Source: an uncultured Paracoccaceae bacterium
Lineage (GTDB): Bacteria > Pseudomonadota > Alphaproteobacteria > Rhodobacterales > Rhodobacteraceae
Assembly (NCBI GenBank): GCA_947498985.1
Contig: CANMMF010000002.1
Location: forward strand, 558,001-622,000
Reading direction: 5' to 3'
DNA: 64,000 nt
The notes under the pieces are model-generated. The model saw only the letters and a list, made by a program, of their open reading frames with translations, was not told the DNA's origin and ran no database searches. Shown here one piece after another: positions 45,148 to 48,292 of this stretch (positions are counted from its first letter, which is position 1; each line of letters starts with the position of its first letter). The position numbers and the translations under genes were made by a program.

Positions 45148-46536
45148 ATGCAGACCAATTTCACGGACGAGCAACTGAAGGATCCCGGCACCGCGCGGGC
45201 CAACGAGATCCTGCGCGCCTGCGTGCATTGCGGCTTCTGCACCGCGACCTGTCCGACCTATCAGGTGCTGGGCGATGAGCTCGACAGCCCGCGCGGGCGC
45301 ATCTACCTGATCAAGGACATGATCGAAAACGAGCGGGTGCCGGACGAAAAGACCGTCAAGCATATCGACCGTTGCCTGAGTTGCCTTGCGTGCATGACCA
45401 CCTGCCCGTCGGGGGTGCATTACATGCATCTGGTGGACCACGCGCGCGAGTATATCGAAGAGCATTACGACAGGCCCTGGCACGACCGGGCGCTGCGCTG
45501 GCTGCTGGCGCGGATCCTGCCCTATCCGACACGGTTCCGCGTGGCGATGCTTGGTGCCAAGATCGCCAAGCCCTTTGCCCCGCTGGTGCCCGACGCGCGG
45601 CTCCGGGCGATGCTGGCCATGGCGCCCAAGACAATCCCGCCGGTCAGCCGCAACGATGATCCGCAGAGCTTTGCGCCGCAGACGGAGCGGAAGATGCGCG
45701 TCGCGCTGATGACGGGCTGCGCGCAGAAGGCGCTGAACACCGATATCAACGATGCGACGATCCGGCTGCTCACGCGGCTTGGCTGCGAAGTGGTGATCGC
45801 CGAGGGTGCGGGCTGTTGCGGGGCGCTGACCCATCACATGGGCAAGACCGCGGAAAGCCACGGCACGGCGGGCCGGAACATCCGCGCCTGGGTGCGCGAA
45901 ATGGACGGCGCGGGGCTCGACGCCATCGTGATCAACACCAGCGGATGCGGCACCACGGTCAAGGATTACGGCCACATGTTCCGCAACACCGCGCTCGCCG
46001 AGGACGCCGCGCGCGTTGCCGGTATCGCGGTGGATGTCAGCGAAGTTCTGGTCAAGCTGATGGGCACGACGTCCGGCGCATCCGGCGCACTCGGCAATGT
46101 CGCGCGCGAGAGTGTCGCGGGCACCAGCGCCGCGCCCGGCAAAGGCGTCTTCGCGCCGTCCGGCCCGCATGGAGAGGGTTCGCTGAAAGTGGCCTATCAT
46201 GCCGCCTGCTCGCTCCAGCATGGCCAGCAGATCAAGACCCACCCCAAGGACCTGCTCCGGCAGGCGGGGTTCGAGGTGGTGGAACCCGCCGACAGCCATC
46301 TGTGTTGCGGCTCTGCGGGCACCTACAACCTCATGCAGCCCGAGATTTCCGGCAAGCTCAAGGCGCGCAAGATCCGCACGCTGGAAGCAAAGACACCCGA
46401 CATCATCGCGGCGGGCAATATCGGCTGCATGATCCAGATCGGGTCCGGCACCGATGTGCCGATTGTGCACACGGTGGAATTGCTCGACTGGGCGACCGGC
46501 GGGCCGAAACCGCCTGCGCTGGAAATTGCAGACTGA
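45148..46536 (+). CDS. glcF: glycolate oxidase iron-sulfur subunit GlcF
   Basis: A 462-residue protein with two [4Fe-4S] ferredoxin motifs near the N-terminus (CVHCGFCTATCP, CLSCLACMTTCP) and two C-terminal CCG domains (GCCGALTHH, LCCGSAGTYN), as in GlcF and heterodisulfide-reductase D-like proteins. ATG 45148 (MQTNFTDEQL) starts the family's usual N-terminus. A Ser/Gly-rich insertion at about residues 305-345 (TTSGASGALGN...) seems longer than in E. coli GlcF. Confidence 0.95.
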   Translation: MQTNFTDEQLKDPGTARANEILRACVHCGFCTATCPTYQVLGDELDSPRGRIYLIKDMIENERVPDEKTVKHIDRCLSCLACMTTCPSGVHYMHLVDHAREYIEEHYDRPWHDRALRWLLARILPYPTRFRVAMLGAKIAKPFAPLVPDARLRAMLAMAPKTIPPVSRNDDPQSFAPQTERKMRVALMTGCAQKALNTDINDATIRLLTRLGCEVVIAEGAGCCGALTHHMGKTAESHGTAGRNIRAWVREMDGAGLDAIVINTSGCGTTVKDYGHMFRNTALAEDAARVAGIAVDVSEVLVKLMGTTSGASGALGNVARESVAGTSAAPGKGVFAPSGPHGEGSLKVAYHAACSLQHGQQIKTHPKDLLRQAGFEVVEPADSHLCCGSAGTYNLMQPEISGKLKARKIRTLEAKTPDIIAAGNIGCMIQIGSGTDVPIVHTVELLDWATGGPKPPALEIAD

Positions 46537-46624
46537 CGCGCGAAAAAGGCACGATTGCGACGGGCCTGCCGCATTTTTGCCGCGATGCCCGGTTAGAAGC
46601 GCGAAAAAACGCGGGAGTTTTTGC

Positions 46625-47416
46625 GTGCGATTTGTATTGATTTTTGTTTTTTCACTTTGGGGCAGCCTCGCCGGAGCACAGGGCTTTTTCTCGATGGAGA
46701 GCCAGCAGGACGGCCGGAAATGGGAGGCGGTGGGCCGTCTCGAGATTGCAGGTGTCGCGTTTTGCACCGGGGCGCTGATCGAAGAGCGGATCGTTCTGAC
46801 CGCGGCGCATTGTCTTTACGACCCCACCACCGGCGCGCGCGTGGCCATCGAGGATATCCAGTTTCTGGCCGGGTGGCGGAACGGGCGCGCTTCAGCCTAT
46901 CGTCGCGTGCGCCGTGCGGTGCCGCATCCCGACTATGCCTATGCCGGCCCGTCGACCGCGTTGCGCGTGCGCAACGATGTGGCCCTGATCGAGTTGCAGC
47001 ACCCGATCCGCAACACCACGATCCTGCCGTTCGACACCGATATCCGGCCTGAGCCGGGTGCCGATGTGGGCGTGGTGTCCTACGCGCATGACCGCTCCGA
47101 AGCGCCGAGCCTGCAGGAAACCTGCAAGGTGCTGTCGCGGCAGGACGGTATTCTCGTGCTGTCCTGTTCGGTGGATTTTGGTGCTTCGGGCTCGCCTGTC
47201 TTTACGTTCGACGGTGACGGCACGCCTCGCATCGTTTCGGTGGTTTCGGCCAAGGCCGCCGCCGAGGGTGAGGCCGTGTCGCTCGGCACCGCGCTCGAAG
47301 AGCCGGTAACGGTTTTGAAAGATATCCTGTCGCAAAGTGCCAATGCGGGAGCGGGTCTGGAACGCATGACCGCAGGCAGTCGACGGGAAACAGGTGCAAA
47401 ATTCGTAAAACCGTAA
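46625..47416 (+). CDS. secreted trypsin-like serine protease
   Basis: A 263-residue S1-family protease. GTG 46625 starts a signal peptide (VRFVLIFVFSLWGSLAGAQG); the frame is open further upstream within glcF's end but lacks a signal. The triad is His62 (TAAHC), Asp118 (RNDVALIEL) and Ser188 (GASGSPV, in place of the usual GDSGGP). Four Cys could form two disulfides. The target protein is unknown. A short reading frame for a second secreted peptide begins at its 3' end. Confidence 0.88.
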   Translation: MRFVLIFVFSLWGSLAGAQGFFSMESQQDGRKWEAVGRLEIAGVAFCTGALIEERIVLTAAHCLYDPTTGARVAIEDIQFLAGWRNGRASAYRRVRRAVPHPDYAYAGPSTALRVRNDVALIELQHPIRNTTILPFDTDIRPEPGADVGVVSYAHDRSEAPSLQETCKVLSRQDGILVLSCSVDFGASGSPVFTFDGDGTPRIVSVVSAKAAAEGEAVSLGTALEEPVTVLKDILSQSANAGAGLERMTAGSRRETGAKFVKP

Positions 47417-47619
47417 AGATCATTCTGGGCACGGCGCTGGGATTGGCGGCGGTGTCGATGGCACACCGGGCACTGGCCTCCTCAGAGGAAATATTCGCCA
47501 CGCATGGGGTGGAGGCGCCAGCATCCCGGTCGCAAGGAACCCACGTGCCAGGCGTCTACCCTGCTGTTCCCGCGACATATTCCGCGCCGGAACGCATAAG
47601 GCCACCTGACACCGGGTGA
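47401..47619 (+). CDS. possible 72-aa secreted protein with ATT start
   Basis: An open frame of 73 codons overlapping the protease stop by 16 bases. Read from ATT 47401 it gives a strikingly normal signal peptide: basic RKTVK, hydrophobic IILGTALGLAAVSMA, then HRALA-S for cleavage. The mature peptide (about 45 residues) is rich in Pro/Ala/Thr. No ATG, GTG or TTG lies upstream in the frame; ATT is a rare but known start. A sequencing error upstream is the alternative. The only later starts (TTG 47443, GTG, ATG) would destroy the signal. Confidence 0.4.
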   Translation: MRKTVKIILGTALGLAAVSMAHRALASSEEIFATHGVEAPASRSQGTHVPGVYPAVPATYSAPERIRPPDTG

Positions 47620-47633
47620 ACCGCCTGCGGGGT

Positions 47634-47662
47634 CTTGAAACCCGCTTTTTCGCTCCCCACAT
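47634..47662 (+). promoter_or_regulatory. RpoH (heat-shock) promoter of the Hsp20 gene
   Basis: CTTGAAA, 14 bases, then CCCCACAT: a near-perfect sigma32-type promoter (consensus CTTGAAA-N11-16-CCCCATNT). It lies 104 bases before the Hsp20 ATG, leaving a leader of about 95 bases. Confidence 0.75.
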
Positions 47663-47706
47663 TGCTTGCGTCAGGGTGCCTTGAAAGGGCTCTGGCATCG
47701 GAACTT

Positions 47707-47765
47707 GGCGCCTGTCTCGGATGGGAAGGCGCCGCATCACAGGTATCGCTCAACGGAGGATTCCC
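47707..47765 (+). promoter_or_regulatory. ROSE-like RNA thermometer in the Hsp20 mRNA leader
   Basis: The last leader hairpin covers 47745-47761: AUC, an unpaired G, then CUC pair with GAG and GAU of the Shine-Dalgarno GGAGGA, around an AACG loop. The UYGCU motif (UCGCU, 47746-47750) with one bulged G against the ribosome site is the hallmark of ROSE elements of alphaproteobacterial small heat-shock genes. A second hairpin with GGCGCC arms (47707-47712 and 47728-47733) lies upstream. Confidence 0.65.
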
Positions 47766-48239
47766 ATGCGACACTACGATTTTGCACCGCTTTACCGTGC
47801 CACCGTCGGCTTTGACAAAATGGCCGACCTGATGGACCGGGTTCTGTCCAACGATGTCAGCACCCAGACCTACCCCCCGTATAACATCGAAAAGACCGCC
47901 GACGATGCCTACCGCATCTCGATCGCCGTGGCCGGTTTTTCCGATGACGACCTCTCGGTTGATGTGAAAGAGCAGGCGCTGGTCGTCTCTGCCCGCAAGG
48001 CCGAAGAAGACGAGAGCAAGACCTATCTGCATCGTGGCATCGCGACCCGCGCGTTCGAGCGCCGGTTCCACCTGGCCGATCATGTCCGCGTGACCGGTGC
48101 CGTGCACGAAAACGGCATGCTCCACATCGATCTCAAGCGCGAGATTCCCGAAGCGCTGAAACCGCGCCGGATCGAGATTGCCAAGCCGCAATCCGTCGGT
48201 GTCGAAAAGGACGTGGTCGACGCCAAGGCCGTGAACTGA
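47766..48239 (+). CDS. Hsp20/IbpA-type small heat-shock protein
   Basis: A 157-residue holdase chaperone. The N-terminus (MRHYDFAPLYRATVGFD) matches the IbpA/HspH class of alphaproteobacteria. The alpha-crystallin domain spans about 30-135 (YNIEKTADDAYRISIAVAGF, then GMLHIDLKREIP), and the tail contains the IEI motif (RRIEIAKP) that drives oligomer assembly. GGAGGA lies at 47755-47760. Expression is expected to rise with heat at two levels, RpoH promoter and RNA thermometer. A strong terminator follows. Confidence 0.96.
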   Translation: MRHYDFAPLYRATVGFDKMADLMDRVLSNDVSTQTYPPYNIEKTADDAYRISIAVAGFSDDDLSVDVKEQALVVSARKAEEDESKTYLHRGIATRAFERRFHLADHVRVTGAVHENGMLHIDLKREIPEALKPRRIEIAKPQSVGVEKDVVDAKAVN

Positions 48240-48264
48240 TCCCGACCTCAGCTCACTGATGGTG

Positions 48265-48292
48265 CGGCCCCGGATACGTCCGGGGCCGTTTT
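48265..48292 (+). terminator. rho-independent terminator of the Hsp20 gene
   Basis: CGGCCCCGG-ATACGT-CCGGGGCCG followed by TTTT, a 9-bp GC stem. It lies between convergent genes. Confidence 0.85.

Follow-up and report, generated by a model that had tools for sequence, protein, structure and literature searches.

In ROSE elements, non-canonical pairs are reported between the anti-Shine-Dalgarno strand and the Shine-Dalgarno (SD) sequence. A U(U/C)GCU sequence facing the SD in the 3' hairpin is described as the mark of ROSE-like RNA thermometers, and the number of hairpins is given as three to four in classical ROSE elements and two in those of Pseudomonas (PMC3669281). The same study reports that deletion of the comparable unpaired G left expression repressed at every temperature. 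The group, i.e., elements with two to four hairpins that are linked to small heat-shock genes, is stated to have its founding member on Bradyrhizobium hspA (PMC4166951). In the Roseobacter clade, ROSE-like motifs are reported upstream of both ibpA and hspD of Nautella sp. R11 (PMC3230580). Among the titles and abstract openings listed by a literature search, with most subscription journals outside its range, none described experiments on a Rhodobacteraceae ROSE element. Translation under heat stress in Rhodobacter sphaeroides is reportedly the subject of one study (doi 10.1111/1462-2920.15818). A look-up of small heat-shock gene terms in PMC3441632 gave no occurrence.

Here, we analyzed a stretch of 64,000 nucleotides (the window) from the 5.29 Mb genome, in 48 contigs, of an uncultured Paracoccaceae bacterium. 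The leader of an Hsp20 gene in the window has the anatomy, conservation, covariation and gene context of a ROSE-type RNA thermometer and very probably is one, with a heat response expected by analogy. With the Rfam ROSE family (RF00435), this leader shares three hairpins, an unpaired G in hairpin 1, the UYGCU/SD pairing, a start codon in the outer stem and an Hsp20 gene downstream. As in the Pseudomonas ibpA elements described in PMC3669281, a UYGCU/SD core is combined with sigma32 control (here, a promoter that is sigma32-like by its sequence); however, those elements are short and have two hairpins, as does the leader of the second Hsp20 gene of this genome, whereas the element in the window has three. 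The likeness to Nautella sp. R11 is that of a related clade, in which both small heat-shock genes are stated to have ROSE-like motifs. Because such motifs are already in print for the Roseobacter clade (PMC3230580), the element is of a known kind, noted before in the clade, and it is a clear, ordinary member of ROSE. Compared with what that report states, the present analysis adds the measured spread of the element, its covariation, and the size of the blind spot that Rfam has for ROSE in this family.

Gene Context and Promoter

The gene for the Hsp20/alpha-crystallin small heat-shock protein (157 aa; PF00011, E = 4.4e-20) occupies positions 47766..48239 of the plus strand, with the start codon at 47766-47768. 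An in-frame ATG at 47721, which would open a frame of 172 aa, was rejected as start codon in favour of 47766, to which both the SD and the ATG retained in the alignment point. Among the relatives listed, those nearest to this Hsp20 come from Cognatishimia, Mameliella, Salipiger, Ruegeria, Sulfitobacter and others, which we take to be Rhodobacteraceae in the wide sense; below, "family" denotes a grouping of the genome sample that was used for the searches. On the 3' side of the gene, there is a stem-loop resembling an intrinsic terminator (48264..48289, plus strand; 11 pairs, 9 of them G-C), and two such stem-loops were found in the kilobase searched, compared to a mean of 0.8 in shuffles. Just 5' of the locus, an open frame of 320 aa (46454-47416) has a translation that, by eye, resembles a secreted trypsin-type serine protease.

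Upstream of the leader is a sigma32 (RpoH)-like promoter (47634..47662, plus strand), composed of CTTGAAA at 47634-47640, 14 nt, and CCCCACAT at 47655-47662, with 13 of 14 matches to the sigma32 consensus. In the upstream regions of the 81 genes compared below, the best promoter score had a mean of 12.3/14, versus 8.6 in mononucleotide shuffles, and the -35 element started 120-134 nt 5' of the ATG in 72 of the 81. The position of the promoter suggests that the 5' end of the Hsp20 mRNA is near 47670, with a leader of about 95 nt.

Anatomy of the Leader and the Match to RF00435

Folding of positions 47660-47770 produced three hairpins, at 47670-47696, 47707-47733 and 47734-47769, the last of which includes the SD and the start codon. 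All three are on the plus strand. In hairpin 1 (47670..47696), the 5' arm consists of GUCAGGGU, a bulged G at 47678, and CCU, and is paired with AGG GCUCUGGC; in hairpin 2 (47707..47733), the 5' arm consists of GGCGCCU, a bulged G at 47714, and UCUC, and is paired with GGGA AGGCGCC. Hairpin 3 (47734..47769), the putative thermosensing hairpin, has an outer GCAU/AUGC helix over the start codon, followed by GG/CC and by a core in which AUC-G-CUC faces GAG-GAU. The letters of this core are AUC (47745-47747), G (47748), CUC (47749-47751), the loop AACG (47752-47755), GAG (47756-47758) and GAU (47759-47761). The SD arm, GAGGAU (47756..47761, plus strand), is separated from the ATG of Hsp20 by four bases, and the UYGCU anti-SD motif is present as UCGCU (47746..47750, plus strand).

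The original prediction had placed a hairpin with this core, one bulged G and a covered SD at 47745-47765, and both the letters and the fold agree with it; the UYGCU motif that it saw facing the ribosome site is the UCGCU given above, and the motif is kept in all aligned leaders. It had further described a leader of about 95 nt with a second hairpin, which agrees with the estimate above in length but not with the fold in the number of hairpins, the fold having two in addition to the thermosensing one. The folding energy of the leader was nothing unusual compared to shuffles (z = -0.33; 59/200 shuffles were as good), which is neutral on the ROSE reading, and chance was therefore judged by conservation instead.

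At the Rfam gathering thresholds, no RNA family matched in the window. When the threshold was lifted for positions 47600-47830 (231 bases), RF00435 matched over its full length (model 1-94) at 47672..47772 of the plus strand (E = 0.026), with a score of 26.7 bits that is under the gathering score of 45; this was the best of four Rfam matches, the other three having E of 2.6 or worse. The match to the ROSE covariance model that had been predicted thus exists end to end, but falls below the cut-off. Of the features by which ROSE elements are recognized, the U(U/C)GCU/SD pairing, two to four hairpins with the SD in the last, and the site 5' of a small heat-shock gene are all present, and a score over the gathering threshold is absent. 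It should be noted that the gathering score sets a limit for searching and does not describe a biological property, and the assignment is carried by the full-length sub-threshold match together with the comparison of leaders.

Conservation and Covariation among 81 Leaders

We compared 81 leaders, i.e., that of the window and the best 80 of at least 582 confirmed Hsp20 relatives, which were aligned with MAFFT, a structure-blind procedure. A UYGCU motif opposite the SD is present in 81/81 leaders, the window included (77 UCGCU and 4 UUGCU), and the SD arm is GAGGAT in 78 and AAGGAT in 3. In all three leaders with the latter arm, AAGGAU is faced by CUU and not by CUC, which is a compensatory change; three further CUU leaders keep GAG, giving a G-U pair. 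The first core pair of hairpin 3 is mostly A-U (66/81), with U-U in 3/81, and the last is mostly C-G (75/81). The 5' arm of each hairpin has a single unpaired G, at 47678 (81/81), 47714 (79/81) and 47748 (81/81); the second of these distinguishes the clade of the window from the RF00435 consensus, in which the stem of hairpin 2 is unbroken.

The RNAalifold structure from the same alignment has 19 pairs, 8 of them with double changes. Scored on the very alignment from which it was drawn, this structure had 95.0% paired cells, versus 89.8% in shuffled data, 98 double-change cells versus 42.5, and a covariation of 0.231 versus 0.139, and none of the 500 shuffles matched any of these values. By the number of double-change pairs, 4/500 shuffles did as well. 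When the structure was slid by -1, the counts of double-change pairs (8) and of pair types (27) stayed the same, yet only 66.7% of the cells were paired. By helix, the paired cells amounted to 88.9, 95.5 and 99.4% for hairpin 1, hairpin 2 and the core of hairpin 3, respectively; the first two values indicate that hairpins 1 and 2 are imperfect in some rows, and some of the aligned rows show a clear register shift in hairpin 1. Double changes were found in 4 of the 8 pairs of hairpin 2 and in 1 of the 6 pairs of the hairpin 3 core, in which three pairs are invariant.

In an arm-swap test on 61 of the 81 leaders, from which near-duplicates had been removed, the arms of hairpin 1 gave -15.3 kcal/mol with their own partners and -10.2 kcal/mol with swapped ones, and those of hairpin 2 gave -14.3 versus -11.1 kcal/mol (0/200 permutations in both cases). 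For the lower stem of hairpin 3 in these 61 leaders, the arm swap detected no covariation (30/200). The ROSE-type identity that had been proposed from the sequence of the window is upheld by the full-length RF00435 match and by aligned relatives with the ROSE architecture and compensatory changes.

Predicted Folding at Different Temperatures and Alternative Explanations

The ViennaRNA outcome for the SD depends on how many coding bases are included. With 3, 6 or 9 coding bases attached to the 96-nt leader, the predicted unpaired fraction of the SD was 2-8% at 20 °C and 11-32% at 42 °C; when 14, 25 or 40 were attached, this fraction was 60-67% throughout 20-50 °C, owing to a pairing between UCGC and the GCGA of codon 2. 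The opening of the SD with temperature, as originally expected, is therefore reproduced, in a gradual form, by the former constructs but not by the latter. The gap between this alternative and a forced ROSE fold is 0.6-2.6 kcal/mol at 25-42 °C. For a 40-nt leader, the ROSE stem holds with 6 and 14 coding bases and is lost with 25 or 40. Across the 81 leaders, the predicted SD exposure rose only slightly between 20 and 42 °C, from 0.10 to 0.16 when 6 coding bases were included and from 0.21 to 0.26 with 25, whereas controls with shuffled upstream sequence had an exposure of 0.40-0.46 (at 20 °C, 0.40 with 6 and 0.42 with 25 coding bases). In 9 of 27 further UYGCU loci, the unpaired fraction of the SD was 0.44-0.57 at 20 °C, and it was lower by a few hundredths at most at 30 or 42 °C. 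Folding across the 81 leaders supports the predicted sequestration of the SD; melting is neither shown nor excluded by folding.

We propose that Hsp20 would be transcribed from the heat-shock (sigma32-like) promoter, and that its leader of about 95 nt would fold into two stable hairpins and the 3' hairpin, in which UCGCU would pair imperfectly with the SD GAGGAU, leaving one G unpaired and the start codon inside the outer stem. In the cool state, ribosomes would be kept off the Hsp20 mRNA, and upon heating, the imperfect 3' hairpin would loosen, such that translation could begin. Melting with temperature, translational control and use of the promoter by RpoH are all attributed to this locus by analogy with ROSE elements that have been studied.

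The codon 2 pairing could alternatively mean that the leader is bistable, with the SD and GCGA as alternative partners of UCGC, and that the start of the coding sequence is itself part of the switch. ViennaRNA indeed favours the alternative when 14, 25 or 40 coding bases follow the 96-nt leader, but GCGA, which the alternative fold requires, is found in only 20/81 leaders, with GCGU in 51, and the energy model does not score the non-canonical pairs that are reported for ROSE; we consider such a switch highly improbable. Less remote, but still improbable, is a conserved structured leader that mainly protects the mRNA or fixes a constant rate of translation, with an SD hairpin that does not respond to temperature and heat control exerted by the sigma32-like promoter alone. 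Such a role would agree with the strong promoter match and with a predicted SD exposure that barely shifts with temperature; it would leave unexplained the UYGCU motif opposite the SD in every one of the 81 leaders and the end-to-end ROSE match, and Pseudomonas ROSE elements on ibpA, which is itself sigma32-controlled, are described as acting as thermometers (PMC3669281). A ROSE-type thermometer that acts together with the promoter is the reading that we prefer.

A Second Hsp20 Gene in the Same Genome

A second Hsp20 gene (L002/L127; own genome, C1, 32405-32812, minus strand) has a shorter, two-hairpin ROSE-like leader, in which GUCGCUU is opposite AAGGAC. RF00435 had no match at this leader at E ≤ 10, and the element is therefore based on alignment and covariation. 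A search with the second Hsp20 protein found a match in 60/61 family genomes, and the best 30 loci, including the own one, were compared. UYGCU within the final 40 nt and a YGCC..GGG core of the first hairpin are common to all 30, and 29/30 have a promoter-like pair CTTG..CCATAT. RNAalifold on the 30 leaders gave two hairpins, with the core as in the first gene; here, the first core pair is G-C in 29/30 and the last is U-A in 23-24/30, one row (L144) having a start codon that is probably mis-set and a misaligned core. Hairpin 1 of these leaders passes the arm swap (0/200). Positions 42-70 of L127 also have a sub-threshold match to the stem of the sRNA SorX (RF02784; 19.1 bits versus a cut-off of 46.6).

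A single genome with two Hsp20 genes and ROSE-type leaders of different length offers a natural comparison for the role of the upstream hairpins. It is conceivable, although rather unlikely, that the long ROSE of this family is a distinct subtype with a bulged G in all three hairpins, that its upstream hairpins, each with such a weak point, contribute to sensing or bind a factor in addition to aiding folding, and that both Hsp20 paralogues are under the same double control by promoter and thermometer.

Spread of the Element

In a search of the whole genome with RF00435 at E ≤ 10, the place in the window was the sole match (E = 0.137). In such whole-genome searches, 3/14 control genomes, i.e., Caulobacter and two from outside the class, also matched below the cut-off; thus, RF00435 matches of this strength are, by themselves, no proof. 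Under strict filters, 68 of 295 genomes of the family matched at E ≤ 1, and 2 of the 295 scored above the cut-off, compared to 0/14 controls. In genomes G000-G060, 13/14 RF00435 matches adjoin an Hsp20 gene, the exception being G047:C16, and one of the 13 belongs to the second paralogue of G035.

The 81 leaders were used to build a clade-specific model (R1). At E ≤ 0.01, R1 matched 275 of the 295 family genomes, some of whose species are likely to be represented among the training loci. The Rfam cut-off, which 2/295 pass, omits nearly the whole sampled family, and annotation that relies on it would miss the ROSE elements of this family. In the own genome, R1 found the place in the window (E = 1.2e-14) and three weak places (E from 0.058 to 4.1), two of which (L095 and L096) are inside long coding frames and were taken as chance.

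In a sample of the class, R1 matched 122/385 genomes at E ≤ 0.1, and 5 of these 122 are from the family of the window. The best 30 R1 loci of this sample were inspected, namely that of the window and 29 others (L098-L126), four from the same family and 25 from other families. An Hsp20 match was found at 29/29 of the latter loci, and the pattern UYGCU-AGGA-ATG in 27/29. The Rfam gathering threshold accepts 1 of 20 R1 loci (L102-L121), all of which are outside the family of the window. At the two loci outside the UYGCU-AGGA-ATG pattern (L103 and L115), both from other families, the SD, by eye, is GGAGAAU in place of GGAGGAU and faces UUGCU.
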